From Fratercula arctica (taxonomy: Eukaryota > Chordata > Aves > Charadriiformes > Alcidae), in assembly GCA_947846985.1 (NCBI GenBank), contig CANTUZ010000008.1, forward strand, positions 36,722,817-36,786,816: a DNA stretch of 64,000 nucleotides, written 5' to 3'. The notes below the pieces were generated by a model. The model worked only from the letters and a program-made list of their open reading frames with translations, was not told the DNA's origin and made no database searches. How positions within the stretch are numbered: the first letter of the stretch is position 1; each line of letters opens with the position of its first letter. Positions 11,958-60,012 of this stretch are shown one piece after another. Made by a program: the position numbers and the translations under genes.

Positions 11958-12001
<44 letters not shown>

Positions 12002-13544: not shown

Positions 13545-13632
13545 TAAAAATTAATGCAACATTCTTCAAGAAAGCATGCCAGAGCTGGCACTCTGGGTGA
13601 AATCCTGAAGTCAAGAGGCACATTTTCATTGC
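13545..13632 (+). pseudogene. Possible dynein exon remnant, linker segment ending in NLRDLSN-IF
   Basis: One frame reads KINATFFKKACQSWHSG, a stop, then NPEVKRHIFI. The dynein linker at this point typically has an ATFLPTA-KFH-(Y/F)-F-NLRDLSNIF pattern. The matches are ATF, A, one aromatic-His pair, N, and IF, with about one extra codon. It lies about 600 bp upstream of the clear exon at 14239 and is the segment expected there. Similarity is weak, so it is listed only because order and strand agree. Confidence 0.3.
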
Positions 13633-14238
13633 CTTTGACGAGGCCAGGATTTGCTGCCTGATAACAGCCAATGAGAAAATGGAGAGTTGGAGTAGCAAAG
13701 TGATAGTTAATGAAGGGTTCCCACAAGGGTCGAGCTGAACAGCACATCAGAAACAAGGGGCAATCTCAAGCCTGATGCGCTGTTTATAATGCTGGTGTTG
13801 TCCTTTGGTATTCGGTGTGCCAGGGTATTCTATGTTGGGAGTGAAGCTGGGAAGAATACAGAACAAAAAGGCAATGTAGAAAAAAGAAGTTTTAAAAAGA
13901 AGCAGGGACTCCAGTAGGACACAGTCAGGCTTTCCTGAAGAGAAAGAGGTGTGTCGGAGATAAATAAAATGGGATTACAACAAAGATGAAAGTCATAGAA
14001 AGGAGGGTGAGGGGGAAGGGTTCACTGTTCCCAAGGCAAAAACACAACCTCATTATACTCCTCCTTTTACAACAGGTCATTAATTGCCCATTAAACATAC
14101 ATACTGTGGGAAGTAAATATTCATGTTTTGGTGACCCAAGGATGCATATCACTGACTGAAACATTTTAGCTTCTAATGAGGGATTGACAGTGTCTCATGT
14201 ATAAGGAAAATAGTGGTTGAATGAAAATGTTTTTGCAG

Positions 14239-14417
14239 GGAAGACTTTCGCTACCCCAGTGATACAGAGATTCCTATTGACTTGCTCCTTTTATGGCTCC
14301 ATGAAATCATCCTGTATTTGCTCAGTTAAATGTATGGAGAAAAAAGATATTGAACATTTTAACAAAATTCTCATCCATGCTACAGCACGTATTTTGAAGT
14401 GTGATTCTTAAAATGAG
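14239..14417 (+). pseudogene. DNAH11: Dynein heavy chain exon remnant, AAA3-AAA4 linker (PIDL..LWLHE)
   Basis: The block has a good acceptor (TTTTTGCAG before 14239) and a strong donor (GAG/GTAAGA after 14417); 179 bp. In one frame it reads EDFRYPSDTEIPIDLLLLWL followed by HE (14240-14305), matching the conserved PLDL-RLWLHE of dynein linkers. That frame then meets a stop at 14327. A second frame continues the family pattern with EKKDIEHFNKILIHATARIL (14337-14396), where intact members have a (E/D)KKD....F segment, and reaches another stop at 14409. At least one frameshift, probably two, therefore separates two recognisable halves of the same exon. The next family segment is the exon at 15204, 0.8 kb downstream. 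Confidence 0.78.
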
Positions 14418-15203
14418 GTAAGACGTATCTGTTTGTAACTGCCCTGTTTCATGCCATATTATTTTCTAAGCATTAGGAAGACGAAAAGGATGTCATGATA
14501 TTGGAATCGTATACTTTACAGATTGTTTATTATAGATATATTTTTTTTAATTCTGCTTCTGGTCTGAATGGACATAATTTCAACATAATAGAAAAGATGA
14601 TAAAATCAAAATCACTCCAGTCATAAGAAGTATTCTGTCCTCTGTTTTACTTGAAGAAGCATACTTAGTCAAGTTTCTTCTTTGTAATGAGACTCTTTAC
14701 CTTTTTTTGGTTCAGATGCTACCACCCTATGGTTGCATGCCATGGTGAAGACTAGGAGAATATTGGGAATCAATGGAGAATACACTGAAGTAGAGCGTAC
14801 TCCAAAGAAAGCAGGGTAAAACTACATGAAATTATATAAAAATAGTGTAAAATGCCTGTGGAAAAAAAAAAAATCTTGTCATTTTGGGGTAAACTCATTT
14901 CCCTCCAGAAAAGGAGCTGAAATGAAAAGCTATCACCAAAACCTGCCTTACATTTTATGCTCTTTTCAGCTGTCTCCAGAGAGAAGACAAAGTGCAAGAG
15001 ATCTTGAACCTAGGCTTCTAGAAATGGCATGCTGCCAGAGTCTGATGGAAAAAAAATAAACCACTCGCTGATATGGTTTCTATAGCTAACAGGATCATTC
15101 CCAGACTCCACGTAAGCGCGCACACAAACACAGGAGAAAATTGTGATAAAGGGTTAATACGCTGGGTGAATACTTGTTTATATCTCTATATTGTTACCAC
15201 CAG

Positions 15204-15395
15204 GGTGTTGATGAACACGTATTTATCCATAAGCCACTAATTTACTGCCACTTTGCCCATGGTGTTGGAGAACCTCGTTACTTTCCAGTATCTGATTGGG
15301 AGAAGCTGACCAGAATTTTAACAGAGTCGTTAGAGCACTACAATGAGCTTCATGCTGCAATGAACCATGTTCTGTCTGAGGATGCTGTACAGCAG
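15204..15395 (+). pseudogene. DNAH11: Dynein heavy chain exon remnant, entry to AAA4 (PLIYCHFAHG..)
   Basis: This is the best-preserved piece. After an acceptor CAG at 15201-15203 the frame stays open and reads PLIYCHFAHGVGEPRYFPV, then SDWEKLTRILTESLEHYNEL and HAAMNHVLSEDAVQQ. This matches the hallmark PL-YCHFA-G-GEP-Y-PV--W--L---L-E-L--YNE--AAMN-VLFEDAM of dynein heavy chains just before the AAA4 P-loop. Most key residues are kept; FED has become SED. The family exon normally ends around EDAMQH. At that point (about 15395) the sequence is GCAGGACAT, with no usable GT donor, and the frame runs on into non-dynein sequence to a stop at 15540. The preceding exon is at 14239-14417. The following protein segment appears only at 51361, so a 36-kb intron starts here. 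Confidence 0.87.
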
Positions 15396-17415
15396 GACAT
15401 GCAAGTTTCTTTACTTTTGGTGGGTATAATATGCGCTCTAGCAAAGATAATCACTGAAATGCAAATACATTTAAAGGTGACCTGCAAGAGTATTAAAAAT
15501 AACCTCACAGCTTTAGAAATATACGCTGAGTTCTTCAAATGACCAGGCTAAGCCAGGCATTTAGCACAGTTTTAACAGGAAATGTAACCGTTTTTACTTC
15601 TAATACTTCCAAGAAGTCTTCACCCACTGTGAATTCTTGGCTCCTTCTCAGTGTGACCCACGGGCCTGCTGCTGGTCATGTCAAATCCACGATAGAGCCC
15701 CAAGGCAGACTGTGCTTTGACCCATCGGGGTATTTTAAAACTCCTTATTACAGCGTTACAGTGGTTTCAAACATTTTACATTTTATGTGGATAGGAAATG
15801 AAGGATATTTAAAACAAAATAATCTTGGCGTGTTAGAAACCTGCGCAGAGCTTTAGGAAAGAGATTTATTTAATGCTGTTAAGCTAGCCCCATATTTTGC
15901 AAAGGGGTCACGTGATGGATGACCTGTCATCTGCTTAATATATTCCAAGGGGTCACCTCATACAGGAGCAGTTACTCCTGCGCAGTTAGAATTTGTGCTT
16001 AAAAGGGTAGATGAGGAGAATGAGATTTACAAATGTTCTTTTAGGAGAGTTTCTGAGGCACGCCTTCCATGTTTCTAAATCTGACAAGTGCTTGATAAAG
16101 TGGTTTTACTTCCTATGCACACTTTATTTTTGTGTCGGGTGCCAACTTCAGCACCAGTTCAGTTCAGTTCCAAGTATTTTAACTATTTATTTAGATTATT
16201 TTTTGCACAAAATTTGCTAGGCGGTCACAGATTGCTCATATAAGCAAGTATTTCCATGTTCATTTGTCAGAAAAAAGTACGTATTGCTTTTGCTGAGTAT
16301 TCACTCATTGCACTCCACGTAATTTGAACTGTAAAATGGCCTTGGTCAGATTTGTTTTGTATGTATTGTTTCACTCTGTTTCTCAGGTAAATTTAAATTG
16401 ATAGCAACCTCAGACTGTTGGCAAGTATTAACTCAAAATCTGCACCTCTCCCTTTACACAGGAAGATAAAATAAGAAAATATTTCTGTCCGTATTGGCTC
16501 CTTCCTTTCAGCTCCCCAAGCTGAAACTGACTGCAGTATAAATTTAAATAATAGCTCTTCTTACAAAAACCTTGGTGCATCCCAAAATTACCTGTTATTA
16601 CATTCTTAGAAAAGTCATTAGATTTATCTCAGTGCTAAAGTGAAAATGGTAACCCCCAAGAAGTACGTACAGGCTTCATCCACTGGGACCCAGAGCAGAA
16701 AGCAAATTAGCTCTTTATCTTGTTTGGATTTTTGTTAATCAAGAAAAATGCACTTAATTACTCTGACAGGAAGCAGTGCATGTAGAAACTGAACTGAGCC
16801 TGGGGCCAGATGTCATGCAGTCTGAGATAGCATAAGTTTGTTGTGCTGCTTCTCTGTAAATAGAAGAGAACCTCCTCAATTACAGTATCTAGAAGAACTT
16901 GTTATTTTTTCCCAATAGGAATTTCAATAAGTCACATAAGAAAAACTTATCCTTTCATGGTTATAAATGTTTATTTTGTATTAGCAACCTGCAACATCTT
17001 TCTTTCATCTCAAAAACTACAGAAGCAGCGAATTGGGCAATAGGACTGCATTTCTTGTTGAGATTCATCCGACACCGGTGCTAACCAAAAACTGCTGTCA
17101 TCCTCTAACTGTACTTGAAAGTAGTCTTAGATCTGTTCATTAGGGATGAAAGCAGAATAGCCCTGTTGCTTATCAACACAGAAAGCCAGAAACTAAGTAG
17201 GTTAGCCTACAGGCAGAATGCTGCTGACAAGTATCTTTCTGCCTTAACACCCACCTAAAGTGAGCAGAGCTTTGTGATGCTTCCTGCAGTCCCACCGTTC
17301 TGACGTTTCACATATTCTCTGTGGATAAGTTATTGGAGTCATGCTTCCTTCACAGCATTTTTGCCAAGGATTACCACTGAGGAAACTCCCCCCCAAAATT
17401 AGTTCTATGATCAGC

Positions 17416-17416
17416 A

Positions 17417-17448
<32 letters not shown>

Positions 17449-17452
17449 GGGG
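17416..17452. repeat. A25 followed directly by G12
   Basis: Positions 17416-17440 are 25 A and 17441-17452 are 12 G with no interruption. No LINE or SINE body is recognised upstream of the poly(A). Confidence 0.95.
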
Positions 17453-20166
17453 CAAAAGAAAAAAGCGCCAGATTTTCAATGGGTGTATTTCCCAGGGCTG
17501 CACTCCCATCTGAATTTCATCTGAATATAACGAGTGATAATGTCACACTGTAGCCTTTCCTGTATCAAGACGTTATATTTTATTTTCTTTTCTTTTTTAA
17601 ACTTGGCCATCTGGGGTTTGGGGTTTTTTTTGAAGCTTGGATGAGCTTAACATCTCTGTGACCCTTCAACCTCTCAATTTTTATTGCAACTGGCTAGCGG
17701 AAATTACCAGCTTTGAATCAACAGACAAACATGAAGTTTGACTGAATAAGAATGGGAATGAAGCAAATTAGTTTCCCTAAGGAAATTACATTTAGAAAAG
17801 TTGAAATAACACAAAATGTAGAGCAGGACTCAGTCAGAACGTCCATCTAATTCCCACTGGCTGCTCTTGGAAAGACAGAAATTCAGATCAGTATTTTGCA
17901 GCTTGGATCAGTCCATGAAGATTTTACCACTATTTTTTAGCGCATGACTTTTGATAGATCAAATATCTTAGGAATACCTGCTATCAAGCAAAAATAAATA
18001 CTCTATCTTAGTCTTGTTTTCATAGTCATCCTATCAGCTGCATTCTCGAGACTCCTTATGGCAATTCTTTCTTAATTGGAGTTGAAAGTAGTGTCAAGCA
18101 AAGTCTATACTGTTTAGTAGTCTTTCACAGCTCACTGGAAGTTCATCAAGTCACCAGACATAAGGAGATGCCCAGGGTATGGATTTTGGTTTGCTGTGGC
18201 TTTTTGTTCTTATGTTGCAACAGTTCATAGAGCATTGCTGACTCCCAAATGCTAGCAATGGGGAGTGTTGGCTTTTCACAAACAATGACCCCGGCCAGGT
18301 TGTGTGTTGGCAGTGGAATTAAAGTTCAACAGGATATTGTAGGGTTTCTTCTCCGCATCATTGTAGAGGCTGTCAATTTTGACCCTGGAATACTACTCTG
18401 TGAATTGTCTGGTTTCATATGTAGGCTGTTCTTTTGAGTGCTTTCCATGGGTAAGCAAGCAAACGAAGGTGGCATGTCCCCACATGTGTGCATATTTTCT
18501 CATCTGCTGTTCTCTTCTTTCTTTTTCTCAGTCTTTACGAGGAGTGTTAATTTAACTTTCATGTTTATGTTGTTTGGGCTGCAAGAAGTTGGCCACCTAT
18601 CCCAAGTCAGACCAGCATCGGCAACCTGTGACACAAGTTCCCACTACAGAGCAGGGCTCTGCTCCAGGTGACGTGCAGCCCGGGCAGGAGATGAAGGCGG
18701 TGGTGCTGTGAGAAGCACTGTGAGAGGCAGCGGATCCCAGTTCTTGGCTCTATAAAACTCTGCGCAAGCTGGGAAACTTCCACCTCACAGACAGGTGATA
18801 TGGTACCAGCTAACTGACGAGGTGAAATCTAAATGCCTTAAAAACAATGTCTCCTGGCTCCTACTGAGTTCCTACTATCACAGTTTATCTGTAATTCAGG
18901 AAAGAAACATATAATCTTGCCAATTGCCCTTTGAAAGTTGTCAGCTCCTTGTTTACACTGTTTCACGAAATAGGTAATATTTCAAGGTTACTTGTGACTG
19001 GCTTTTGTTCTGAGATGACAGGGGACATTGCTTCTAATTAACTCAGCGTGTTCATCAGAGTCAAATTCTTCAAGTCCGTGGGATCTGCATTACAGGGAAA
19101 TTTAACTTCAAGTATGATATACTAACAGGTAGCTAACATTATTTAATCTAGTGGAAATTCATTGAAAATAATGGGAAATTTACCCCACTTTGACTGACAA
19201 CTTAAAATAAAAAAATTACAACTTTCTCAAAATATATGGTCAGTAATACTATAGTGGTGTTAATAGATTTCTAAATGATTATTTTTATACGAATGTAAAG
19301 GCTTCAGAGATGGATCCTTTACTAGGGGTATGCCTATAATTATAGAAAGTAAAATAAGTATTTTACATTTACAGTGCATAATAAAGTATAGTCAATGATG
19401 AAAGAATATTATGTAATGGAGTCCAGAATATCAGAAATGAAAATTGCAGAGTAAAGATTTTCTGGTGTTCTCATCAGCAAAATTCTGTAATCGAGAAGTT
19501 TACTCCCGTATGTCTGATGGGTGGTAGTGTCTCTCACAGCACCATGCTGAAGGCAATATTGATTCCAGACTGGTTCTCCTTTCCTCTTGGTATATTTGTC
19601 TGTTTCTTAGTTTCACTTTAGAAATACCTACATTCATGGTGTTTCTATTGAATCTCTTGCATCTGAAATAAAGCTGCTTTGATATGCAGTAATGAAGGAA
19701 AATTTCACTCAAAAACCCCCAGGCTAATGGCAAACAAAACGTCTTGTGTTGGTTTTGAGGAATTTCTGAAAGACATAAGCTAAGCTCCCAAAGATTTTTG
19801 GAAGATTTGGCTCTTTGCTCTGAAGCTGGTAATCACTCAACTTCTTGGCTTGATATTATTTTGAAATTTTCAAAATATTTTGATTATCTCAAAACTAACT
19901 CCTCTGCCCCTTCTTTCAGAAAGTTTGAAAATGTGTAATTTTTGGTAGTAAGCAAAATTTTTCTTTTTGAATAATAGAATCTCTCATGAAATTGCAACCC
20001 TGATTTTCCATCCTGCTTTACACCTGCTCTAAATACAAGGTAATGCCCTTGTGAGTTCAAATGATAGTGTTTGGATCTGTGAGTTTTCAGACGGCCTGAA
20101 CATATTGTCAGACCTTCCTCTATTTAATTTTAGGGCTTGGATTTGAGCTGTGACCACAGACAATTT

Positions 20167-20191
20167 AAAAAAAAAAAAAAAAAAAAAAAAA
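20167..20191. repeat. Poly(A) run of 25
   Basis: Uninterrupted A from 20167 to 20191. The upstream sequence does not resemble a known retrotransposon 3' end. Confidence 0.95.
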
Positions 20192-20779
20192 TTCACTAAC
20201 CCACCCCCCTTTTCTTTTTTCCTTTCTTAACAACAAAAATGGAAAAATCTGAAGTAGCCCTACAAGAAGATCTTCAAGCATGCTAGACACCATATCCTTT
20301 TAAGGTACTTTAAGATTCTCATATGCAACTACAATGGGCCAGAAAAAGGTGAGTTGAGGAGACTGGATTATCTGTGCATTTTAATCAAAACATGCTCCCT
20401 CCCTTTTTTTCCTGGTGAATTTTGTAATGGACCTCGTCAAAGAAAGAACAGGGACAGGCACTGTCCTGATAATAATTTATATTTATTCTGCTGTCTCTGA
20501 AATTTTAACTTTGATTTGCGTGCCTGCAAAGCTGATGATTTATGTGAAGTTTCCAGAAGTGGCTTTAATATGGCAATCTTCATGGCAGGGTAGCACTTTG
20601 TGCGGAACCCCATGCTTAGAGGACAGAATTGGAAGATTGTGGTTGAAACTATTAGAGAAAGGCATTAGTCCTCAATAACAACAAAGAAATGGCAAAGAAA
20701 AGATAAAATCTTGTCCAGTTGCAGTCATTTCCTTATTTGCTTTCTGCTTCCGAAATATGGTTGTGGTATAAAAGAACAT

Positions 20780-21120: not shown

Positions 21121-23839
21121 AGTAGAGGTACTTCTCCATTTGATAGTTTCAGCAGGCAAAAATTGTAATTATTGCATTATTTGTATCTGGAAACAAAAAT
21201 ACAAATTTGACTTTTTTTACCCTATAATATGATAAATCGTTCAATCCCGGACATGAATCAGAAAAATCTTATTGTATCAATGATTTAATTTGATTTATAA
21301 ACTCACTAGTAGTAGCTCTTTTTTGCAAATTATATACAAATAATTATATAATATATATATTAACTCAAGTTTTACTTTACCTTTATAATCAGGACGATAT
21401 TGATGCTTATTTCGTCTTCTTTCTACCTCCCCCCTCCCCCAAACAGTAGTGTTTTACTGCTTTTCTTTCGTTCTGTCTGGTTGTTTTCCATACATTCTGC
21501 AATTCCTGCATTTTACTGGAAAATTTAATGATCCTAGAGGAAAATATTTGTAACGGAAAGTAGTTCATTATTATCTAAGGGCAAACAATATGGGTTTATA
21601 GTGTAATCAGCAAGCTGCTCTGAAAACAAAATGCTTGCTCACGTTTTTGGGTAGCAGTCCCTGTCTTTGTGACAATGGCTGCATCTTCAAATTGTTAATT
21701 ATGTACTGCCCCCTAGGGATTCCTGCTTTGCTTGTGGCAACCTGCTTGCAGCTCCTACGGGATCCATGGATTATTACCGTCTAGATTTCTCATAGGGAAC
21801 TCTGACTTCTCTCCTCTTCGCCTTTTTTTGACCTTGATAGTAACTTTGAATTTCTTCCTATTCCAGCTATAATGATATGACTTGCTTTTTAACTCCTTCC
21901 AGGTTAGTTTTGGGTTTTGTGGGGTTTTTTAAAGTTGATTATTAATATCTGTGTGTTTACAACATTCTGTGTATTTTCAGTGCATGCATATTTGGGTTTA
22001 TATATGAAGTTTTCTCTGCATTATTTGAATGGGATGGGAACATTTTTAAACATTCTTTTTCCTTTTGGCATTTCTAGGAGATGGGCTTTCTTTTCAATTG
22101 CTTGTTAAAAATGAGCTGAGTGAATTTCCTTCTCAGAGCCACATTTTACTTCAGTGCTGAAAGAAAGAACCTGGAAACTGCAGTACTTTACACAGATGTC
22201 AGATACCCAATGAGTGATTTCTTGTACTTACTGATGATGTGGTGGTTTCAGGTAAATAATAATAATAACGAGAACAGTGATAAGGACAAGTTTCCTTTTA
22301 TATCACTCACATAGGTGACATGCGATGTCCACAGAAAATTTGTTCAGAGGAAAGAAGAATTTTGCAAAAAGTATTTATGATCAAAAGAGTTTGGAAATAA
22401 CAGATGGTAAAATGAGCAAAGGGCAGTAGGTTTTGAATAGGCTTCATCAGAAGAGGGGAGAGATCATCTGGGAAGATTAGTTATAGGAGCTATTAAATCA
22501 CCTCTGTGACACTGTTAGAAGATGATGCTTAACATAATCATGTGCAATCAGTAAAAATGCTGTTTATTACAAAATGGTTTTGATTTTCATATTTGGTATT
22601 GTTATGTAAGATGGTGTAATGTAAGGCCATACACATTTCCCCAGTACAAATTATCAGCATTAATGATTTGCGGTCCTTTTCCTGACAACTTTCAAAGTAA
22701 AAAAAATCTGTTGGGAAATACGTCTCCAAACCTACTTTCACTAATATATTTAAAGACTTGCATAGTTGTTTTTCTTTATACTGTAGTTGTAGACACTTGC
22801 AACTGATACAGTGTTTAGATATCAACTAGTTCTGCATCCTGTACCTCTGGGTTTGATTATCCCCCTTAACGACACAGCGCCAGGCCTCTCTGAAGTGATT
22901 CAGTGACAAGAATCTACAATTCTTGTCTCTTCAGTTTGGAGTTAGACTGCTCTATGCATATTTTTCCCATATGTAAAGTAGAGAATTATATCATCACTTC
23001 TGTTTGTCATATATTTATGTAGTACTACGGATTATTTCAGGATGAATGTGTCAATCATGAGTTTTGGATTTGGACATATCTTGGTTGCAAACTGGGTTAG
23101 AAATTGACTCTCATGTTTGATGAGAACTAGTTTGAAAATTTGAGGATGGTGGAAGCTGGCCAGGGTTTTGGGGTTTTTTTTGCATAAGTTTTTGGCACAA
23201 ACTAGTATCTTGCAAGACACTAACTTATAATTTTCCCTGAGTTTCCCTTCATTCTAGGTCATAATCCTGCGAGGATACATGTTCTTGTTCTATCACCCTG
23301 AAGAATGTCTAGATTGCCTGAGAAAAAAACCTCTTAATTTTGGTGTAAGTTTGGAAAGTGTTTTACAGGTGGAAGTGGGCCAGAGTTTCTCTGAATATGT
23401 CTGGATGCCATCTGGTCCTGTGGGTGCAAGAGATAGAACTCAAAGTACCTGGAGACTTAGCCAGAGGGGAAAGAGTAGTACCTACTGTGTTAGCTCTGGC
23501 CTTATTTTTGTTTATAATGTTAGACCTCTGGCAGAAAAGCAAACTAATTTATAGTGTCATAAATTCCAGCACTGTGAAGGCTGGAAACTCTCTAAAGAGC
23601 CAGGATTAGGTATCTGAGGCATTGTTTATCATTATCTTTCTGCAGTGTTATGCTGATGATGATTTCAGTGGGATTATTTTGGCCTAGAACTCACATATAG
23701 TTTTATTCCAGACCTTTTCTTGTATTGCAATATAAGTTAAATCTGGGTATATTACAATTTTACTACCTACAGAATAGTGCATGAAATTTGCAGGAAGCTG
23801 CTAAATCAAGAATAAGAATTTATATGCAAATTTCTTTTC

Positions 23840-28240: not shown

Positions 28241-28866
28241 CACAGAATCATAGAGTGGTTAGAGTTGGAAGGGACCTTAAAGATCACCTAGTTCCACCCC
28301 CCTGCCCTGGGCAGGGACACCTCCCACCAGACCAGGCTGCTCAAAGCCCCGTCCAGCCTGGCCTTGAACACCTCCAGGGATGGGGCATCCACAGCTTCCC
28401 TGGGCAACCTGGGCCAGTGCCTCAGCACCCTCACAGGAAAGAATTTCTTCCTGATATCCAATCTAAATCTACCCTCTTTCAGTTTGAAACCGTTATCCCA
28501 TGTCCTATCGCTCCACTCCCTGATCAAGAGTCCCTCCCCAGCTTTCCTGTGGGCCCCCTTTAGGTACTGGAAGTGGCTACAAGGTCTCCCTGGAGCCTTC
28601 TCTTCTCCAGGCTTAACAACAGCTCTCTCAGCCTGTCCTCATAGGAGAGGTGCTCCAAGCCCTCTGATCGTCTTCATGGCCCTCCTCTGGATTCACTCCA
28701 ACAGGTCTATGTCCTTCCTATGTTGGGGGCCCCAGAGCTGGATGCAGTACTCCAGGTGGAGTCTCACAAGAGCGGAATAGAGGGGCATAATCACCTCCCT
28801 CAACCTGCTGCTTATACTTCTTTTGATGCAGCCCAGGATGCGGTTGGCTTTCTGGGCTGCAAGTGC
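28241..28866 (-). mobile_element. CR1 LINE 3' fragment, avian type
   Basis: The + strand begins with the reverse complement of the CR1 tail (CAGAATCATAGAGTGG..). On the - strand the ORF2 C-terminus is still readable: KLKEGRFRLDIRKKFFPVRV and, further on, PSLEVFKARLDG. The copy is 626 bp, truncated at its 5' end near 28866 in the AAAVKKAN-like region. It is the youngest-looking CR1 here, with only a few frame breaks. It lies inside the 36-kb dynein intron, opposite to the host transcript. Confidence 0.95.
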
Positions 28867-29270
28867 AATATAGCTTAAAATAAATGCATTAACATTTTTC
28901 TGTTGAGAAAAATTAAGTGACGTTTCCAGAAAAGCTTCATTGGGGAAACAAAGCCATTTTCTAGTTTGTATTTATTGTATTTTTGAGCTAAAAAGAAAAT
29001 GTTGAAAGGACGTGTTAAAACAAAAGCAACCTTTGGATCCTTTTCTGACCCTGAAGCAAGTGTCTGTCATGGCTATCATTGCAGAGCGAGATGTTTTGTC
29101 TCCAGCTGTGGCCTGTGGGTGATAACCAGACCTTTTACATTTCAGTCATAAGTGTTAGAGATAAAGATGTCGTGAAAGAAAGAGAATTAATGTTTTTTCA
29201 CTGTTTTACGTGCTCACCCCCTCTTGTGCTCTTGCTAGTTCAGGGGTCGTTGTTTACCTTCACATTTCAG

Positions 29271-30538: not shown

Positions 30539-33329
30539 CCTTTTGAAGGCCTTGTTACTCTTCTCCACTAATTAACATCACTGTAAGCGACAGGGTGTGA
30601 ATTTGCAAAGTAGGCTGTGAGTTCTATGTAATGATCTTATATTGTAGGCGAGAATACTTGCACCTTCTGGTGACATCTGCATTGTTTAGCCAAGGCAAAC
30701 ATCAAGAGAGCATCATTTCTTCTCCTGGCATGGAATTACAAGGGTTTGGCCAGGCAGATTCAAGAGAGAATGATGGGCAATTTTTTTATTGACAGAATTT
30801 GTCAACAGTTAAAGGTGAGAAAGGACAATAAATGGGAATGATGAGACCTTCTTTTTTTTTTCCTTTTACAATTGACAAATAACTTCACCAGGCAGAAATA
30901 CAGCAGAATGAATTGTAATAAACACAGTGTTTGTGGTAAATTATCTTTGTTAGTGAGGAAAAATCAATGTATTGATTTATTCTTTTTATGTGCAGAATCC
31001 AGTTATAGGATGCCTCATAAAATCATCCTTTAATCCTCATATTACCTGCAAGATCAGAGTAAATTAGGGAAACTCCAGATCACTGTGTTTCATTTGTTTC
31101 TGCAGAAAAACCTTGAATGGCAGAAATGGCAAAATCGCGTTCTGATTGATTTTGAGAGGTACTTAAGAGTAGCTCCCCCAGCTTCAAGCTGGGGTAAAAA
31201 GAAAAGGTATGTGTCTGAACCAGCTAGTTTGTGTGAATAAATTTGGCCACTGAGTTCCCACTGTAAATCCCACGGTAACTCCCACTGACTTTCTGCAATA
31301 GCTCACCTGACTGAGCTAGCTAATGGCAACAAGCTCCTTAGACCTGAGTAAGGCACCCTTCTGCAGGGAAAAGTGAAGAGATCAGATATTTTTGGAAGCT
31401 TGAATTAAACTTTGTGTAAGTGGCACCAGAAGGCTACATGAGTTGAGTGCTATTTTCTATCTTTTTGATTATGCTTTGCAAAAATACTGGAAAAAAAAAA
31501 TTCTAATTGTCTTCTTTTTCACCTCCAAGTTCCAGCATAACTCAAATTTTGTTTCCGAAGTAACACGTGCTGATGCATTCCCTAGCATACTTCTGAAAGT
31601 TGTAGGATATAATTCGTCAGATTTAAAAATGACAATTTTGACATCTGGGGTGAAGTAGAAAGACTGGAACACAACCACCTCTGACTCTGTCTTGCTGGCA
31701 GTAATAAAAACATACATTTACGAAGTGAGCAGATACATGGGACTAATTCTACCTTGGTAGTGTAAGTGAAATGAATGAGACTGAGTTACACAAGTGTAAA
31801 GGCAGCATAAAGGAGAAAAGAAATCAATCCAGAGTATTTTGAAAGCACATACAGTCATGTGTTATTTATACTACCGTGTTGCTGAAAGCAACCCAAACGC
31901 TTTTGGCGTGGTATTTGTGCATCCTTTATGGGCATGTGTGAGAATGCCATTTCCTGGGATTTTAGCATGGAGCAGACTATGCACGACATAGATTCTTTTT
32001 TTATATTATTCTTTTTTCCTGGACTGGAGAATGAAACCAAGGCAAAAAAAATGCTAGCTTGGTTTTTAGGTGGCTCTATTTCCGCCAACCGGATTTATTT
32101 TGCCAATTAGAATCATGGTGAGAGTCACTATGAGATGATGCTGAAGAGAGTGTTCAGTGGAAAATGCTTCACCTATTTGTTACAATTCTCCCAGTAGGTG
32201 TTCAGTTGTAAAACAGTAATTTAACATATAGAGTAACCTAGAATCTCTGCTAAATACTTATTCACCTATGTTGTTGGCTTAAGTGAAGATACAGATGACT
32301 GGATCAAACTTGATGTTTGTAATGTCATTAGTCATGGGAATAAATGGGATTCTTCATGGTTCATTTTCCTGTAAAGATAGGAGGAAATAAAATTCCGATG
32401 AGTTAATGTTGCAGGCATAGAATTTCCTGTGTTTTTCTAGAAATAATTTCATATTAAATTCTTCAGGCTTTTGAGTAACATGTGGTCTTTAAAATACTGT
32501 TTAATTAAAAAAGAAATAAGCATAGCGTGTTTCATGTGGTTTTAAGCATAACCCTGCACTTCATAATTTTTCCAAAATACTTCCTGAAGATTTCCAGACT
32601 GGTTTAAGCCATTTTTCAAGCATTTCTTTGATTATTTCTGCTTTACGGTTGGACTTTTTCTTTCAAATTAATTCTTTGATTTGTGACGTGTCAGAGGATT
32701 ACGTTCCCACTTGAACCAGGCAGGACAGCATTTACTGCCGTAGGACTCCTGTGGTACAGCACACTTGCGTACAGCCAGTGTCTGACGGACTTCTCTGTGT
32801 TGCGCTGGGCTGAACAGAGGTGGCTAGAACCAAAAGTTCGCAGCCTCGGAAGTTTTAGATCAGGTACCAAGGAAAAGGGACTTGGCAACAGTTCACAAAT
32901 GGAGGAAAAGGCTTTGTAAAGTAAAATGAGAAGCATGTGTGCCTCAAGGAGCGTGTTTCTTCGTCTTTCAGCAATTCTTTCCACAAGTCTCATCTGCTTT
33001 AGATACAATATTTTTTATATTCGGGTTTTGTTCTCTGATAAATTCTATTCAATAACGGGTAGAAGTTGTAGATCTGCAACAAACAGGTCCCAGATACAAC
33101 TGGCTTTTACACTAATGGCTGTGTAGGATTTTCCCTGTTTTCCCTCTGCCTAGTCCTAGGTGATATTCTGGCATTCCTGTGCCTCATCTTTTTGATATAT
33201 AATATATTTCCATGGTATATTTGTGTGTTTGTGAAATTTCCCTTTAGCTGTCCTACAACATACATGCTGTGCTTAGTACATTGAGAATTTGTTGCCCTGC
33301 CTCTGTCATTTGATCCTGATTTCATTCCT

Positions 33330-33540: not shown

Positions 33541-36500
33541 TCCGAAAGGCTGAAGAAAGTCCTGGTAGGTTCTCTTGTTATTTATTTAGGTTTCCTGAAA
33601 TAGAGAAAGCAAAACATAATAAAAGCGAGATATTTTGACTTCTGACCTCTTGTAAGGTTCCACAAAGCTTCACCAGCTGGGTGTTGTTTGATCCACTTCT
33701 ACGTTTCTGCAATCTATACTTGACCTAGTTTTAAGTGTGATCCAGCCCTTTCCAACAGGTTAGTTTCACATGACTGAGTGTTTAAGTATTTACAGGGGAT
33801 GCCTAAGTGAGAAAATAGGTATTTACTGCCCAAAGAATGTAAGTCTTGTCTTGAAGCTGCTTTCTGGTGCTGCAAAGTGACTCACACAGGGTCAGAGGCG
33901 AGAGAAATTGTCAGAGGAATTTTCATAATCCAGCAGACAGCCTCATGATTCCCCCTTTTACTCTGAAGAAGCAAGAAAAAGAAAAGCTGATCTGTTCCCT
34001 GCCACATAGTTGGGCAGAGTCATGTCATTCACACTAAAACGGAGGGTAGAATATACCTACTTGGGCTTAAAGTTAGGGCCAACAGACAGCGCTCTTTTGA
34101 ACGAAAGGAAGGAGAAATAATGAGCAGTTCTTATTTTGTGATGGAGTGGGCACTGACCAGATGATGCGAAATCTGAATGCAACAGCATCCCACTTCCAGC
34201 AGAGAGGCTGCTGGAATTACCTGGGCGCTGGTTGATATCCAGGAGGAACTGTCAAACCTGAAAAAAAGTGAATGATTTTAAATGAACACCAACTCTGAGA
34301 TTACTCTCTGAAATATCATTTTGAATTACCTTTTCAAATGTGCTTTTTTATTTCAGATCTATTTAACTTGCATTACTTTTAGAGCTGTCCCTTTCTATTG
34401 TTTCTCCTTACGCTGTGCATTGTGTATATTTGTATCCAGCTGCGCACATGCTTGGGTGCATCATGGATTGGTCTGTACAGTAGAGTCATGAAGTATTTAT
34501 GACTAGATCCTAGTCTCAGATGGATAAAATTGCACCAGTATCTTACGATGAACACAAAATAGACTGACAGCATGTCATAAATATGACTGAATTTCACTTA
34601 AAATAATTGAGCTGACAATACGCAATAGTACCAGAGCCTGTAAGACCTGCTGAAGTGATCTTGATTTAAAAAGGACTTTGTCAGCATAATTTCTTAACGT
34701 TCACATTAGAAAGCAGCAAATAAAAACAAAAGGCAAGTTTCTGGTGGAGCACGTGTGCTAAATTTTAGCACATCGTCTCCTAATGCTTTTCTTTTAATGC
34801 TTGCTTTTTAAAAGTAAGAGTTCCTCTGTTCTCTGGTAGCATTTAGAAATTACTTATTTTGAAGGACTTTTTGAAAAGGCATTAACTGTTTTTATATATA
34901 AGGATAGGTAATTACATGCATATGTACTTTTTCCCATGCATTTTAGTAAATTTTCAGGCTGAAGGAAATGTTTTGTTGAGCAAAATGAAATACTGATATT
35001 TCAACTTTTTAAACTGCTAAATACACTTAAACTTAATTTCTTTTTTTTTCTTAAATAGAAAACAGTTTCATTTCTAAATTGTTTTGATTACAAAAATGTG
35101 TTTTTCCTTCAGATAAAATTCTGTCAAATCAAGATAAACTCCCTAAATGCCTATCTGATATTGAGGGGAGAACCCACAACACCATCAAAAATCTCACCTA
35201 ATTCTCTGGGGTTTAAAACAAAACTAATTTTCCAGTCCTGATGAACTGCACAGCCATTGACTAGGTATCTGGGAGCCTTGGAGCAGCACTGTCATTGAGA
35301 AGGTAGAGTTATTTGATTAAGCTTATGTTACTTCTTTCATGTTACTATTTTCCCCCCTCCTCCAATATTGTCTTATTTGGAACTATCTGTTCTGAAACAA
35401 CACAAAATATTGTGTTCTTTCAGACTATCTGTTAATAACAGCTTCAAGCAAAAGCTGAATGTTGCTAAAATCAAAGCTGAATAGTTTGAATGTTGCGAAA
35501 TACAGTGCAGACCAGCAACGCAAAACAATTTTTGAAATGTATTCCTAAGTTAAGAGGATCTCTCTTAAATTTGTTCAATTTGATTTCTGCTTAGTCCTTC
35601 TGAAAGGTGCCAAACTAGGAGTAGAGACTAAGGCAAAATTTGCACGCTATGCACAGCATGGGAACAAAATGATCCACGTGTTGCCCTTAGAACACACCCA
35701 GGTGAATCAAGATTGTCAGTTCTTTCGACTTCATTGGATTTTGTGATACTGAGATTTGTGATATTTGTCATCTAGGTTCTTCTTAAAGCCTTAATTCCTA
35801 GAATCAAGGGATTACTTGGAAATTCTAGCTTTTTCTCATTCTCTTTTCTTGTTTCTCCTTTTTCTTCCTTTGTTTTTTCCTTCCTTTCTTCCTTTCCTTC
35901 TTTTTATATATCTCTCTTTTTCTGTCTTACTAATAACTTTATTGCTTCCATGGCTGCAGAGAAAAGCTTGAAAACATGTTCTGAATAAGTGTAAAAAGAA
36001 AAGTGTATCTTACATGTCTTACTTCATTACTTTAAAGCCAATTCCGTTTTTCAGTGGGACATAGAGGCATAAATACTAGCAGAACTTCCTGTTTCCTCAT
36101 CTGTAAGACCCAAGTTGTATCCCAATGCCACAATGAACCATCCTTCTCAGATGGCACTTGAGTCCTCCTGAGCTCAGGGAGAAGCAGAGAAAGGAGTATT
36201 CTGGAGAGCATCGCATGACTAGGGAAAAAGAGATTTTGGACCTCTGGCTCCTGCTGCAGAATCTGCTGCTACCTGATCTCATCAGATCTTTGCCCTCTGC
36301 ACCAAAATGAACCCCATGTTTAACTGATCTGGAGAGTGTAGTTGGCTGAGATGTCATAAGTGCAGGTTCTTGCTTCCAGTCCGTCAGGAATGGGTGTCCA
36401 AATGCAGAGGTCAAGGCTGTATTGCTGTATTTGAAGCCTGACTAAGTTTGAAGTCCAGCCTTTCAGGCAAGCATGGAATAAATTTCACCACAGAGGAGAG

Positions 36501-52535: not shown

Positions 52536-52845
52536 GGGCCAGCAGTTGGCACTCAACCTTTTTTGTAAAAGTCACCTTATCTGCTACTATTAGACACTGG
52601 GATGGCACTCCTCTCTTTCAGTTTTTGGCACACAAGCATCTCATCTCCACTCTGCATGCGGAAAAATCACAAAATTTATATTTAGCTCTCCTCATAAACT
52701 TGGACAATATGACAAGTGTCTAATCCAAATAATTGTTTAAGATTATTACAATGATAATTATTGCGCTGATAATAACAACACATTATTTCAGCTGACAATA
52801 CATTAGTTCCTTAGGGAGATAAACTGCAAGGCCAATGGATTTATC

Positions 52846-52944
52846 TTGATAACAAAATGGGTTACTATTAACTATGCTTATAATTTTTCCATCCATGCAC
52901 AAAGAAATCTCCCATTGAGTTCATTGTCTTTTGACTGACTGCTG
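52846..52944 (+). pseudogene. DNAH11: Dynein exon remnant, start of stalk (NEMS..YY..NYTTP..FKNLL)
   Basis: NKMGYY is read at 52851-52868, where the family has NEMS--YY. NYAYNFS follows (family NYTTPKS). The block ends FD-stop-LL for FKNLL, placed exactly before a strong donor CTG/GTAAGA after 52944. The expected QNERR residues are deleted and about six codons appear inserted in the second half. The following stalk exons (KK-NE... to EERK) were not found with confidence between 52945 and 55864. Confidence 0.45.
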
Positions 52945-55864
52945 GTAAGAGTTTTCTCTACATATACATAACAGGACTGGATCCCAAATTAGTATGATGT
53001 TCTTGTTATTCTGCTATTGTCTAAGCAAAGCCCAGAAGCCTATACCTTTTCTTTGCACTATAGGAGTAGGACTACTGGCTTTGAAAATGCCTCTTAAAAA
53101 TTACGAAATGGAAGACAAATGAGGGATAAAACCAGCTGTGAATCTATTCGGATTTTACAGAGTAGATACATAAATGAGAACAACAAATCTTAACCTAACT
53201 ATGATTTCCTGTACGTAGCAGCATAGAAGAGATGGCTGTACATCCATGAACTTCCATTAAACCAGAATTTTCACTATACCGGTAATACAAACTTTGGACA
53301 TTACAGTTCCAGCCTCTGATTATGATTTTGGGCTGTAGCAGGTAATTATCTTTTATCCCTGACTTTTATTCTCATTCTGAAAAGTATCTAAGGACACTTG
53401 ATCAAGGGAAGGATCTTTCCCAGTGATCACGTTTTTGCAGGAAGGCAAACATACAGAACTGTATTGTTAAAAATCTGCGGCCCAGTGTCTTCAAAGAACT
53501 TTGGATCAGACCATAAGTCTTGACTTAACACTTACTCACTTACAAAAACTGCTATAATCAAAAACCGTTAAAAATCCATACATGTTTTGTTTAGTTCATC
53601 TGCTTCATATCTTTCCTATATATTTATCACTGTGCTGAGCTGGTTTTTTTTACTTTGTCTTTACAACATACCTTCTTAAAAAGAATAATTAATCCAGGTC
53701 AAGAATACTATAAAATTCTTTGGAAATTTTGATAATTGTCATGGACATTTATTTGCTAAAAAATACATTTGACACCACAAGACTAACATTAATATGCAAA
53801 TCAGTGGACTATAAAATTCATTTTGGTGCCTCCAGGGCAGTATTTTTATAAATACAGAAAGATAATAATGCATCCTCCAGAGGACGAAAAATAATTATAC
53901 AAATTTGCAACAAAGCCCAAGGCAGTGTCTCCTTTTAACTGTCTGTTTTTAATATCATTTAAATCTTGTTAAAACTTAATTACCAATTCTCTTTTGTAAT
54001 AATTTAAGTGGAAGAGCTGAGGCCTAAGCTTCATGTTTGAGAGAGAGGACTTCATCAGAGAAACAAAGACGCCAAGGCACAGACTGACAAAATAGGACAG
54101 TGCACAGTAAAACTTGGTAAAGGAAAAGTCATCAGAGACGATGATGAACAGAATATACACAGAGCTGTTAACATCTGCATAAAGTGGAACTGAGCTGATG
54201 TCTTGTATGATGGTAATACAAATACACCAGCATATATATAAACCTAAATATAATATTTATATCTACAAATATATACTTATGTATATATGGTATAGCTCAA
54301 GCTGTATCCACCTGGGAGGGGAGTTGCAGGACCAGGGCCTTCATCTCCTGTCCCTGTTCCCCAGCTGTTCTGTCTGGGAGATGGTGGCTGCTCAGAGCAG
54401 CTTTAAAAGGGAGTGGATCTAAGTTCAAAGCTGGCCTGGTTACAAGGTTTCGGCAATGCCTGGAGGAGGCACATTTTATGGGGAATTTCTACTGTTTGAA
54501 TACCTGTGGATCCCTGTTTATTTTTTAAGGCTGCATGTCTGAACAAGATAATCTGTTCTCTTTCTCCATGGCTGATAGAAACAGGTACAATGGCAGCTCT
54601 ACCTCTGTATCAGAGGTATGAGGTCAGGGAGAGGGCCTCAGCTTTGTACCCCAAATAAGGCACCTGGTGAGCCATTTAAAAGAAATGTTGCACTGTCAAA
54701 ACCTGTTTCTTTGGACTGATTTACTGAAGATTCTGTACCCGTTACTTTTTTATGTGTTCATCCAAAGATCCCAGCAATGTCTTCTCTCTTTACATTAGAG
54801 GTAACGCAGAGAGTAAAGCATATGGCTTCTCTGCACTGTGGTGCTACCCCCCGCCGCCTCCTCTTCCCCCTGGTTTCTCCTTTGCTGCCAAGAAAGATGA
54901 GGGATGTAGAAAACAGGGTAGCTTCTTGATTTCCTCCATCAGCAACACACATCCCATTGACACGGAGACTGCTGCCTCAGGTCTTTTCTTGGTGTCATGT
55001 TTGCCAGCTAGTGTTTAGTAACAAGTGTCACTGTCTGCTCCTCTGCTTTGAACTAGAACACATTTCTGTTAGCCTTCACATCCAACTGAAAGCAGCTTTG
55101 CATTGATTTAATTCACCCTTTTTAGTATGACCATACTCACAATGAGGGATGTGCATCCAAACTTCCAGCTACTGCACAATTGCCACTGGGCATAAATTCA
55201 AGTGATTTGGCACAGCATCTGGTTGGGAATCAATTCCCATTGGTTCATGCTGCCCAGCGCGTGCGTTCCTTTTGATTGAAACGCCAGGCGTTTGTTAGCA
55301 TTACTGATGCTGGTGACAGGCGTCCTCATAGCACTTCTCTGTGCTTTCAGGCTGCGTATTCATTGAGTGTTGATGGAAATAAGAGACGGAAAATATTAGA
55401 GAAGGCGGTATATTACAGATTTCGCGTACTTGCCTTATTGCATTAACAAATAACTTGTTCATTTGCAAATATACAAATTCATCATATTTGTGACTGACAC
55501 TTTGTATGCCTCAATTTTTCCTAGAATGATAATGCTTAAATTTTAAGATGTCAAAACTATGTTTTTATTTAACTGCATAGACTACTCACAAATCTTGTAG
55601 CTTTCATATAGAAATAGTATCCTTCAGAGCTAGAAGTATGGCATATATAATAAGCCTCTTTAATTTGTAAAACCTTGAAATTTAAATCAAGTGTTAAATA
55701 GGCTGTCATTTGCACCTGTGCAATTGAATTTGAAGTTGAGGGGTTTCCTGAACTGGACTAGGTTGTAAATATGGTGGTTTCATTGGGCTGTAAATACATT
55801 TGCTTCTAATCATTGTTTGCCACAACCGCAGTGGGTGTGAAAATGGAGGTGTGATATTTTCCAG
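52945..55864 (+). other. Interval where the first stalk exons are expected; nothing secure
   Basis: The family would place the ascending stalk helix here. The only hint is 55351-55407, bounded by a strong acceptor (TCTGTGCTTTCAG) and a GTATAT donor at the expected phase, but its peptide shares few residues with the family. AT-rich simple sequence lies around 54230-54290. No other element is recognised. Confidence 0.4.
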
Positions 55865-55978
55865 GTTGTTGCTAGTCAGGCAGAAATTATGAAGCAGCAA
55901 CAAGAGTCGAAAGATGATCTTGCTAAAGCTGACCCTGCTCTCAATGCAGAAAATGCTGCCTTAAATATTTCAAATACA
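55865..55978 (+). pseudogene. DNAH11: Dynein heavy chain exon remnant, stalk coiled coil (DLAKA-PAL)
   Basis: After acceptor TTTTCCAG the frame reads VVASQAEIMKQQQESK then DDLAKADPALNAENAALN, matching the near-invariant (E/D)DL-KAEPAL-AA--ALNTLN of the dynein stalk helix; about half of 39 aligned positions are identical to the class pattern I recall. The helix forms part of the antiparallel coiled coil that carries the microtubule-binding domain. At the end, TLN(K/R) has become ISNT and the sequence is ACAATAATG where a donor is expected, so splicing to the next exon at 56094 is probably lost. The frame meets a stop at 56006. Confidence 0.82.
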
Positions 55979-56093
55979 ATAATGTGTCTCTGTTCCTTGC
56001 TTTGAGGTAAAACGATCAGAATTTTTTCCCCTGGTTGTAAGTTCTGGATCTATACTTCTTACAACTGAGCTTTGCAATCTTGTCAGCTTTTAG

Positions 56094-56227
56094 GTAAACC
56101 TGATGGAGTTGAGAACTTTCCTGAACATACCTGAGCTATAAACAATGTGTTGCAGCACCGTGGGGCCTTGTGTTTCCAGAGGAAAAAGTCCAGAGGCTGG
56201 AAAACTGCAAAGATATACGTGGAGAAG
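56094..56227 (+). pseudogene. DNAH11: Dynein heavy chain exon remnant (VNL-ELK.. to SWK-AK--)
   Basis: The 134-bp exon has an exact acceptor (CAGCTTTTAG before 56094) and donor (AAG/GTAACT after 56227). The first frame reads VNLMELRTFLNIPEL, the class pattern being VNLSELK-FPNPP. It then hits TAA at 56139 where Val is expected. After a frameshift the end reads KKSRGWKTAKIYVEK, matching PKDRSWKAAK-FMGK. It follows the stalk exon by only 115 bp, and the continuity ALN-then-VNL is exactly the family order. Confidence 0.82.
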
Positions 56228-59200
56228 GTAACTGAAAAAGTGATGGGAGCACATTTGAGATATATGATTTATTTGAACAGTCCAAGTAAATGAGGTTTTA
56301 TTGCTAGGCATAGGTTTTCTAGTGATATTTCAAGAAAATATCAAAGATCACAGAAATGGCAGGAGCTTGTCAAATTCTAAAAATGTTCCCAGGTTAATTT
56401 CAAGACCCTTTGCCATCTTATTTCTGCAAAATGTGACGTATTTAAACATTGCCAAAGAATACACTTCTTAAATGCCAGTATATTTTAGGAAACATAAAGG
56501 CTCTGAGATGTATGTCAAAACCCCAGGTTCCCCAGATGGGTGCCACAGAAAATCTTTCTCCAAAGAAGCTTCAGAAATTTCGGTCTAATGTGTATTATTA
56601 ATGCAAGTCTGTGACAGCTCTTGAGAGGGCTGTTATTATCAGGCTTGTTTGGACTGGACTATGTCAGACGACCACAGGCTGAAAACTCGGAGTGTTCAGC
56701 CTTGCTTGTACTTCAGGTAGGCAGTCGTAAGACACCTACCCAACACTATACCTTCTTCTTGCCGTGCCTTGGAGGCCTGCAATTCCCAAATAATCCCTGT
56801 GTGTGAAAAGGGAAACAAATTCCTGCTTCCTTTGCTTGAGGCTTGGGAAATACTAACTTTTATCATTCTACTGAGAAGCTGGTGGCGGCAGCGCTGAAAT
56901 GCCAAAGAGGTAGGTAGTGGGAGCTTTACAGCATGCCTGTTTACATTGCCTCATCTCCTTTGTGCTGGATTCCTCTGTAGCACATCCTGTCCATTTGTCA
57001 CCAAGAAATAAGATACAGTGGCCAAGAGAAAGTTGCTTCAAGTGAAGGATTAATTTCATACCACGTAAGAAAGATGGCTATTGATACTGGGTGAGGGGAA
57101 CACTAATCATGCTGATAAATATCATGTAGCTGATAGCGTCAGGCACCAAAGGTTCAGTTTCAACATTGCATCCTTTGCAACTCTTGCAAGCTCTGAGGCC
57201 CAGTTAAACACCTGCACGTTTTAAAGTTGAAGCCTTGCTTCATGGGATGGCATGGGGAGATTGAATCCTACCTGCTCTGTGTAAGGTTCCAATCCTCCGG
57301 CATTCTGTAGTAGCTCTGATGAGATACAGAATAGAGAGTAAGGTTCCAAAGCCTTGCAGTACATATCAATAGGTGTTAACTATGAAGAGAAAAAGAATTT
57401 TTTCATTAATGCTAAATGGATCTTTAACATACAGACACTAAATTTCCTAGAACATAAAGAATTCTCTGTGTGCCCCACGTCCCTGAAAGGGAAGGTGGAA
57501 ACATTTTTCAGAAGCTTTAACGGAAGGACAAATATCGTGGGTTTCTTTTCGAATTGCCAGCAGCAGTGTAACTGCACAGCCCCTGCCGCCGGGTTAGGCT
57601 GAGAAGAAGGCTGGGTGACGCACTGGATGCCTTCAGGTGGGTGAAGTAACAGTTATTGTGAGTCGTGTTGTGACAGTCCCCAGTAGCAATACTGCACTCA
57701 TATTGTGGCAGACTTACAGTGTCAAGACTGTGTTCCAGCCTCCAGTCTGCTCTTTTCTCCAGTTCCGCACTGCCTAGCCCAGGTTATCTAAAGTTAAATG
57801 ATTGAAAAGTACAAATAAAAGGAGTTCAAAATGCACGTCAGGAAAAAGACGCACTTCCCATGGTATTAGACTACAAAATTCTGCTCTGAGTTAGGAAGTA
57901 AGCACACCAGCTATGCCTGTCTTTAATTTGGTGGTGTTTTAAAAGACAGAGTAATTACCAAAATATGGTTGACAGTTTTGAGGTGAAGAAGATACTGATG
58001 TACACTTCACAGATTGCTCTGTCCCCCTTGCTGCAATGGAAAATCAAAGGCTTATGATATTGGACCTTACTGCTTTAAAATCGTTTGAGACAGGGGTGTG
58101 GGGGAATACGTTTAGATTTCAACCTCTCCAGATGTCACTATCCATATCTTAGAGAATATAGCCCCAGTATTCCAATAAAAGGAGTAACTGGAAATTTGTT
58201 GATGGCCCTACGAAGTAACAACATACTGAAATTAAAAAGTAAAATAATTGACCGTCATAGCTGACCATAAAACTGCTGAAATCCTCAGAGGGGTATGGGT
58301 TTTTCAGCTGTCTGTCTTCCTGTGTGTTTTAAGGCTGTGTCTGTGCCCGGCTGCACACACATCCTTCCACCGCAGTCCCATGTAGGATGCAAAGCATGTC
58401 AGGAAACCCTATGTATGAAGATCCTATCTTGACTACCACACAGGTAGAGTTTTAGTTTCTCCTGAGTTATTAATCATTAATAGTTTTGTAATCAGTTTTA
58501 TCCCAGGGATTATTCATGCCACTACTTGGAAGACCCAGTTTGATCTATTGATCAATAAAGAAAATAAGACAAATCAAGTTGTTCCTTAAAATTAAGTTAG
58601 TGATTCAGAGAATCATAGGGTTGGAAGGGACCTCTGGAGATCACCTAGTCCAGCCCCCTGCCAGAGCAGGGTCACCTTAGAGCAGGTTGCACAGGAACGC
58701 GTCCAGGCGGGTTTTTACCCACTGGACCTAATACCTCATTTAGACTAAACATTTAAAAGTTACATTTCTGCAAAGTAATGAATCTAAAATATTTTGTTAC
58801 TTTGGTTGCTTACTGATCTATTTCAGAAAAACAACAGTCCCTGGTGAATAAAAGAAATAAATTACTGCATGCTTCAAGTGGAGTTCATGTTAGTAAATCA
58901 GTCATTAGTCCAATTAAATAATGTTTGTCTCCGGAGATGAATTGTTTCCCACATCCTGGAACAGTTAGAATATCCCCAGGATCACAGACATTTGAAACAG
59001 TGATTGCAAAACACATTATTGAGATATACAATATTTGCATAGTTTGCATGTAGAATGAAAGCTTTGTGTTCTTTTTCTTTATGAGACTGTTGTTAGCAAA
59101 TTGCTAGATTACCCAGAAGACTTGTTGAGATCAGAGAACAAGCCTGCATAAAGAGGTCATGCCTAACACTAAAGACACCCACAACTGCGGGCTTTAAAAA

Positions 59201-59830
59201 CAACAGCATTACCCATTTGAAAATAGCAATAGGAGCCATGGGAAAATAGCATCCTGCAGTCAGTCCAAACATACCGGAATCGGTGGGAGTCGCTCATGCA
59301 AAGTAAAGGCCAGAACTGAGTGTTCTGTGCTACGTATCGACAGTCTTACTGAACTAAAACGGCAGCATTTCCCCAGGTTGTCTTTTAGAATTTGTAATTA
59401 CTCCTTTCTTTTTAACAAACATAACAAAATAATGAAATAGGTGAACTATACTTCGCTTTCTGTGTATGTGAGGTCACTTATTTAATTTTCTCTGTACTAA
59501 TATGTTTTTTAGGTTTCACTAGTTAAACCCCAGAATACAGTGGTTACGTGAGGGAGATATGGAAAAAGACTGGGGAGAAAATTTATTGGTGAAAAAAGAC
59601 TTGTACTTTCATGTAATAATAAACTTCAGTAAAGGGAAGGGTTGGAAAGAACAGGTTTAGTGTCAGAAGAAATATCCAAACTAACATTCAAAATATATAT
59701 GAAAAGCAGATTTGAACCACTTTTTACCAGTGCTGACCCACAACTTATCAAGCTGGTATTTCCACAAGCTTCAAATTTTATTACTAATTAGTCAATCTTC
59801 ACAAATATTTTCCTTTTTTTTTTTCTTTAG
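56228..59830 (+). other. Intron of the dynein pseudogene with a CR1 insertion
   Basis: Canonical GT at 56228 and AG at 59829-59830 bound a 3.6-kb intron between two recognisable exons. It contains the short CR1 copy at 58605-58720; I see nothing else of note in it. Confidence 0.7.
58605..58720 (-). mobile_element. Short CR1 3' end
   Basis: AGAATCATAGGGTTGGAAGG and CCTCTGGAGATCACCTAGTC are CR1 3' end in reverse complement. The following GAGCAGGTTGCACAGGAACG is typical of one avian CR1 subfamily. It sits in the 3.6-kb intron between dynein exons at 56227 and 59831. Confidence 0.9.
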
Positions 59831-60012
59831 GTAGATGGATTTCTGAAAAAGCATATTAATTTTGATAAGGAATACATTTCTGTGGTTCTCTTTAAAACTG
59901 TAAAAGAAGATTAGCTCTGTGACCCAGAGTTCAACTCAAAATTTGTGCAAGCAAAATTTCAGCCGCTGCTGCACACAGTGCTCGGGTTGTTAACATCGTT
60001 AGAGTCCAGGAG
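59831..60012 (+). pseudogene. DNAH11: Dynein heavy chain exon remnant, post-stalk (VDGFL..DPEFN..AAA..NIVR)
   Basis: A long polypyrimidine run and TTTAG precede 59831, and GAG/GTAGGA ends the 182-bp exon at 60012. The frame reads VDGFLKKHINFDKEYI, the family having VD-FL--L-N(F/Y)(D/N)KE-I. It continues VKED to a stop at 59912-59914 (TAG where the family has Tyr) and resumes DPEFNSKFVQAK. A one-base shift at about 59956 then gives SAAAAHSARVVNIVRVQEV, matching S-AAAGLC-WV-NIV-FYEV. The stop lies inside a segment whose length agrees with DNAH9/11-type proteins. The next exon (CDVEPKRQAL region) was not found before the window end. Confidence 0.87.

Follow-up and report, generated by a model that had tools for sequence, protein, structure and literature searches.

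The closest described relatives of the gene treated here are the dnah9l/DNAH11-like outer-arm beta dynein heavy chains of tuatara, lizards, amphibians, fishes and sharks. DNAH11, the gene of mouse lrd/iv and of human PCD7, is likewise a beta chain and in the human genome sits between SP4 and CDCA7L. For zebrafish, dnah9, dnah11 and dnah9l have been tabulated, Dnah9l without a human partner (PMC6008050, Table 1). The stretch of 64,000 nucleotides from Fratercula arctica analysed here (the window, positions 36,722,817-36,786,816 of contig CANTUZ010000008.1, termed C8, in an assembly of 1.21 Gb and 28 contigs) carries part of a gene which resembles the dnah9l/DNAH11-like chains in sequence, exon order and clade, but which is wrecked whereas the relatives are annotated as full proteins. 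It is very probably the unitary pseudogene of a resident fourth outer-arm beta heavy chain of the zebrafish dnah9l type, an ohnolog of DNAH11 located between SP3 and CDCA7.

A comparable case is STK33, a unitary pseudogene of neognath birds which was surveyed in 28 neognaths and dated to approximately 100 million years (PMC4509753). It resembles the present locus in the decay of a whole gene to exon remnants with indels and stops, but concerns another gene, and 28 neognaths there compare with one genome here. The known losses of central-pair genes in birds also affect genes of motile cilia; DNAH genes are unmentioned in the main text of that work. Like DNAH11, the dead gene is of the beta class and is closely followed by a CDCA7-family gene in the opposite orientation; DNAH11 differs in occupying its own locus beside a CDCA7L-like gene (here on contig C2), and the dead gene is read as its ohnolog.

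A tblastn search of the window with 12 DNAH11 and DNAH11-like proteins (from tuatara, lizards, amphibians, lungfish and sturgeon) detected collinear dynein exons on the plus strand from 965 to 59956. Lesions were catalogued in a frame-aware alignment, in which the last exon reaches its donor after 60012. The 14 outer-arm beta heavy chain exon clusters between 965 and 60012, all on the plus strand and in protein order, are given below with identities and residue numbers referring to the Sphenodon DNAH11 protein (P0001).

965..1159, plus strand: exon remnant, residues 909-974, 34/65 identical, 1-codon deletion; first nucleotide-binding loop GNAGVGKT changed to GKAVVGKE
2593..2775, plus strand: exon remnant, residues 967-1030, 28/61; TAG stop at 2734
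5721..5825, plus strand: exon remnant, residues 1030-1064, open, 31/35
10506..10747, plus strand: exon remnant, residues 1065-1145, 48/81; stops at 10566, 10644 and 10710, frameshift at 10725, donor kept
14226..14398, plus strand: exon remnant, residues 1142-1199, 32/56; frameshifts
15201..15400, plus strand: best-kept window exon, residues approximately 1199-1264, 61/75 over 15195-15419; donor degraded
18021..18164, plus strand: exon remnant, residues 1263-1310, 28/48; next nucleotide-binding loop GVGGSGKQ changed to GVESSVKQ
22138..22251, plus strand: exon remnant, residues 1322-1359; frameshift, stop at 22215, donor kept; weak alone (best E 0.038)
30636..30814, plus strand: exon remnant, residues approximately 1350-1408, 38/57; stop, frameshifts, donor kept
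35229..35351, plus strand: exon remnant, residues 1426-1466; stop at 35262; weak alone (E 0.31)
54008..54157, plus strand: exon remnant, residues 1535-1584, 24/50; stop at 54038
55865..55981, plus strand: exon remnant, residues 1584-1622 (stalk region), 26/40 over 55862-55981; acceptor kept
56094..56236, plus strand: exon remnant, residues 1622-1672, 25/46; frameshifts, acceptor kept
59831..60012, plus strand: exon remnant, residues 1670-1730, 35/61 over 59831-60015; stop at 59912, frameshift at 59957, acceptor and donor kept

Over these clusters Sphenodon DNAH11 is matched at 449 of 762 aligned residues, and 266 of the 413 residues that are invariant in the clade are preserved. Eleven of the 14 reached E<=0.001 individually in the search of the surrounding locus described below, while the two weak exons at 22138 and 35229 are supported by their position within the series. 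Between 10.8 and 14.2 kb no convincing dynein match was obtained with tblastn, the sole stretch being 13002-13328 (E ~1). Direct reading revealed eight stop codons (TAG at 2734, 10566, 10710, 35262 and 59912, TAA at 10644, TGA at 22215 and 54038), which are accompanied by frameshifts and by the changes in two nucleotide-binding loops. As judged by eye, acceptors are retained before 55865, 56094 and 59831 and donors after 10747, 22251, 30814 and 60012, and the donor at approximately 15400 is degraded. The sequence-only reading of the window had claimed at least nine ordered exon remnants on one strand, with stops, frameshifts and lost donors beside several intact splice sites, all of which is borne out; it had also named 15204, 55865, 56094 and 59831 as places where a translated search should find dynein, and dynein was matched at all four. 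From its proposed extent of 13545..60012 the end stands as an exon end, but the start has to be moved since remnants occur from 965 onwards.

The remnants in the window belong to a dead gene that extends well into the flanking genome. The window was extended by 200 kb on its upstream and 60 kb on its downstream side, and searching the resulting 324 kb with 13 reference proteins yielded 437 high-scoring segment pairs (HSPs) at E<=0.001, none of them on the minus strand. These define 36 exon clusters at C8:36,632,085-36,832,217 (200 kb), which correspond to approximately residues 191-4333 on the scale of the Spea protein (4464 residues), and all 35 steps between clusters are collinear. Chance similarity was rejected because the 13 proteins gave 0 HSPs in each of five shuffled versions and in one reversed version. 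A processed pseudogene or retrocopy was likewise rejected, since the exons are kilobases apart and the introns retained. In the 36 clusters together, the best reference is matched at 1200 of 1880 residues, 622 of 919 invariant positions keep their residue, and 20 stops and 32 frameshifts were called. Under a single protocol the dead gene showed 18 stops in 32 clusters versus 0 in 9 at the DNAH9 and DNAH17 loci, so that the stop calls are not noisy. The gene shows two of the features of a unitary pseudogene, namely introns retained at the resident place (36 separate clusters with splice sites partly kept) and disabling lesions too numerous to be errors (20 stops over the 36 clusters). Judging by these lesions, the locus is predicted to make no working dynein.

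The assignment to a particular beta chain is based on similarity, phylogeny and neighbourhood. The best window exon gave 129 bits against Sphenodon DNAH11 compared to 62 and 58 bits against the PDB chains of DNAH17 and DNAH9, respectively. In a maximum-likelihood tree built on 1861 columns and 31 rows, none of them mammalian, the dead gene falls within the group of Sphenodon and lizards with a support of 100, its pairing with Sphenodon alone reaching only 62, and its branch is 0.61 long versus 0.059 for Sphenodon. From the two paralogs of one shark it matches P0090 (1686 bits) better than P0107 (1210 bits). It is therefore a member of the tuatara-lizard-frog-fish-shark clade, membership of which marks a dnah9l/DNAH11-like chain. 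In the databases this one clade is labelled "DNAH11", "DNAH11-like" and "heavy polypeptide 9 like", the latter being the UniProt name of several of its proteins.

Neither bird, crocodile, turtle nor mammal was among the names listed in the protein searches (109 hits from 113 candidates; 8 from 16; 53 at E<=1e-101 among 1832), where the listed rows show at most one or two names per 90% cluster, one being unnamed, where the third list was obtained under a strict threshold, and where a shared-word filter also shapes the lists. As mammals possess DNAH11 and yet none is listed, the clade hardly represents mammalian DNAH11, unless the latter evolves much faster. Furthermore, human DNAH11 residues were compiled as far as they are given in PMC6491566, PMC13155666, PMC13275048, PMC11344339, PMC8435457 and PMC8208527. 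The 13 full-length clade members match them at 31-34 of 51 usable sites, compared to 38-47 of 51 among themselves, and two partial clade proteins match at 25/42 and 20/40. What the databases label DNAH11 in this clade probably corresponds to the ohnolog and not to the DNAH11 of mammals. Whether shark P0107 is the true DNAH11 is not settled by bit scores, given that the exons of the beta chain on C2 (609 bits versus P0107, 593 versus P0090) and those of DNAH17 (575 versus 549) lean the same way.

Upstream of the dead gene and on the same strand lies an SP-family gene with a glutamine-rich exon and zinc-finger exons at C8:36,613,120 and 36,615,547; the upstream SP exon had no match in Pfam or PDB. 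We take the C-terminal words of this gene to be those of SP3 and not of SP4. On the minus strand downstream follows a CDCA7-family gene (PF10497). A genome search for PF10497 found two loci only, on C8 and at C2:35.311M, each located shortly downstream of a gene for a beta heavy chain, and the gene on C2 is also on the opposite strand to its beta chain. The residues TKTNCRNPDC on C8 are presumably those of CDCA7, and TKTICRNQGC on C2 presumably those of CDCA7L. Given the human order SP4-DNAH11-CDCA7L, the SP3 and CDCA7 flanks on C8 and the CDCA7L-like gene on C2 point to C2 as the DNAH11 locus and to C8 as the duplicate, and we read the dynein locus on C8 as a copy of the DNAH11 locus from the vertebrate genome duplications. 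Two loci composed of a beta chain and a CDCA7-family gene reveal the pair, whatever names the genes are given. The sequence-only reading had called the window gene DNAH11-type and proposed CDCA7L and SP4 as its neighbours. This synteny failed, since the neighbours are presumably the paralogs CDCA7 and SP3, and the identity as DNAH11 is left unsupported with a CDCA7L-like gene adjoining another beta heavy chain on C2.

Besides the C2 gene, the other beta-type places among the candidates scored in the genome are DNAH9 at C11:13.26M (477 bits versus 429 for DNAH17) and DNAH17 at C11:4.37M (195 bits versus 170 for DNAH9). The short pieces read of these two contain no stops (2 clusters in DNAH9, 7 in DNAH17). 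The C2 gene, which is DNAH11 by synteny, is probably dead: in the 10.9 kb examined of >100 kb (C2:35,186,817-35,196,816; 35,274,201-35,274,660; 35,293,380-35,293,820) its 8 exon clusters carry 3 stops and 2 frameshifts. It had been anticipated that the window gene would count as a dead duplicate if the syntenic locus elsewhere held an intact, transcribed DNAH11; by synteny DNAH11 does lie on C2, but in the parts examined it does not appear intact. That both ohnologs have been lost, leaving motile cilia and sperm with DNAH9 and DNAH17 as their two outer-arm beta chains, has in our view about an even chance. T3460 of DNAH11 has been described as conserved in mammals and not in chickens (PMC6491566), and this comparison suggests that the chicken has something alignable there.

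Several observations weigh against the interpretation as a decayed ohnolog of DNAH11. The names SP3 and CDCA7 for the flanks are tentative, the comparison at 51 sites is small (5 of 56 were dropped as their mapping was unsure), and shark P0107 is hardly closer to human DNAH11 (36/51). The frameshift calls are noisy, as two also arose at exon edges of the DNAH9 control. The aligned residues (1880 columns) cover less than half of the 4464-residue protein. Retention of invariant residues varies between exons beyond chance (chi2 78.8, 32 df), and one exon at C8:36,794,359-36,794,496 retains 43 of 46 tuatara residues. The whole-genome search yielded 332 first-look candidates, of which 16 were scored.

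The uneven decay of the exons would fit continued selection on parts of the dead gene, which might persist as a short coding gene or provide the neighbours with exonic regulatory DNA, as would the 43/46, 31/35 and 34/39 residues retained in some exons and the open frame at 15150-15539. However, only a handful of the 36 exons are so well kept and they were singled out post hoc, and rows of low retention may hold wrongly extended alignments, so that we regard such selection as unlikely. It also appears quite improbable that the dead gene is DNAH11 itself, the human ortholog, which would require that the flanks are read wrongly or that two beta genes exchanged places. The clade is indeed mostly named DNAH11 or DNAH11-like in databases, and the flanks are of the same SP and CDCA7 families as in human; but the CDCA7-family gene with CDCA7L-like residues adjoins the other beta chain on C2, human DNAH11 residues, as far as compiled, fit the clade worse than its members fit one another, no mammal is among the listed matches, and the tabulated zebrafish Dnah9l lacks a human counterpart.

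The sequence-only reading had left the choice between a unitary pseudogene and a decayed segmental duplicate. Retained introns would be expected of either. The unitary pseudogene of an axonemal beta heavy chain is upheld, whereas the DNAH11 label is not, and a segmental duplicate with a working original elsewhere seems very unlikely, because the dead gene is nearly full length between two unrelated neighbours and neither an intact nor a better-matching copy was seen in the whole-genome search with the Sphenodon protein, within the candidates scored. For a living gene made to look dead by assembly or sequencing errors no support was found beyond some N runs in the region; the contrast between 20 stops in the 36 clusters of the dead gene and none in the 9 of the controls, together with a branch tenfold longer than that of Sphenodon, makes this explanation practically negligible.

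If the locus is a unitary pseudogene as proposed, the gene would have been freed from selection, probably as its paralogs DNAH9 and DNAH17 covered or replaced it in its cilia, and stops, indels and splice losses would then have gathered along its full length, most likely by neutral decay. Hints at its former job may come from its relatives. At embryonic stages expression of zebrafish dnah9l was detected only in the otic vesicle (PMC6008050). Chameleon "Dnah11" was reported in the otic vesicle and kidney and not during left-right patterning, with a probe that may hit either ohnolog, and reptiles including birds are described as lacking motile cilia in the left-right organizer (PMC10126504). The role of the dead gene may have passed to DNAH9 and DNAH17. 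Estimates of K amount to approximately 0.17-0.20 from invariant residues and 0.085 from stops; with assumed avian rates of 1.2-3.0e-9 the former correspond to 56-170 million years. The loss may accordingly be on the order of 100 million years old, a poorly bounded date at which most living birds should share it, as for STK33, and an older loss is also conceivable since neither crocodiles nor turtles are listed in the protein searches. In the portion of the literature covered, mostly outside subscription journals, we recognised no report of the loss of a dnah9l-type gene or of DNAH11 in birds.

The window also contains tails at 28246, 47761, 58620-58645 and 61527 (plus strand), which we take to be those of CR1-like retrotransposons as in bird genomes, a reverse-transcriptase-like frame at 28696-28971 (minus strand) and two adjacent pyrimidine tandem arrays with 12-base units at 11940-12250. 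Within the 3' part of the dead gene long G+C-rich open frames of low complexity occur at C8:36,816,817-36,818,816, two of which were tested and had no Pfam match.

In mammals defects of DNAH11 lead to primary ciliary dyskinesia and laterality defects. The sister beta chain described here is approximately 80% identical between shark and lizard. Annotations and probes named "DNAH11" in reptiles, amphibians and fishes should be treated with caution, as they may denote the ohnolog. A lineage without the sister beta chain, and perhaps without DNAH11 too, would represent a natural knockout in which to ask which cilia needed these motors.

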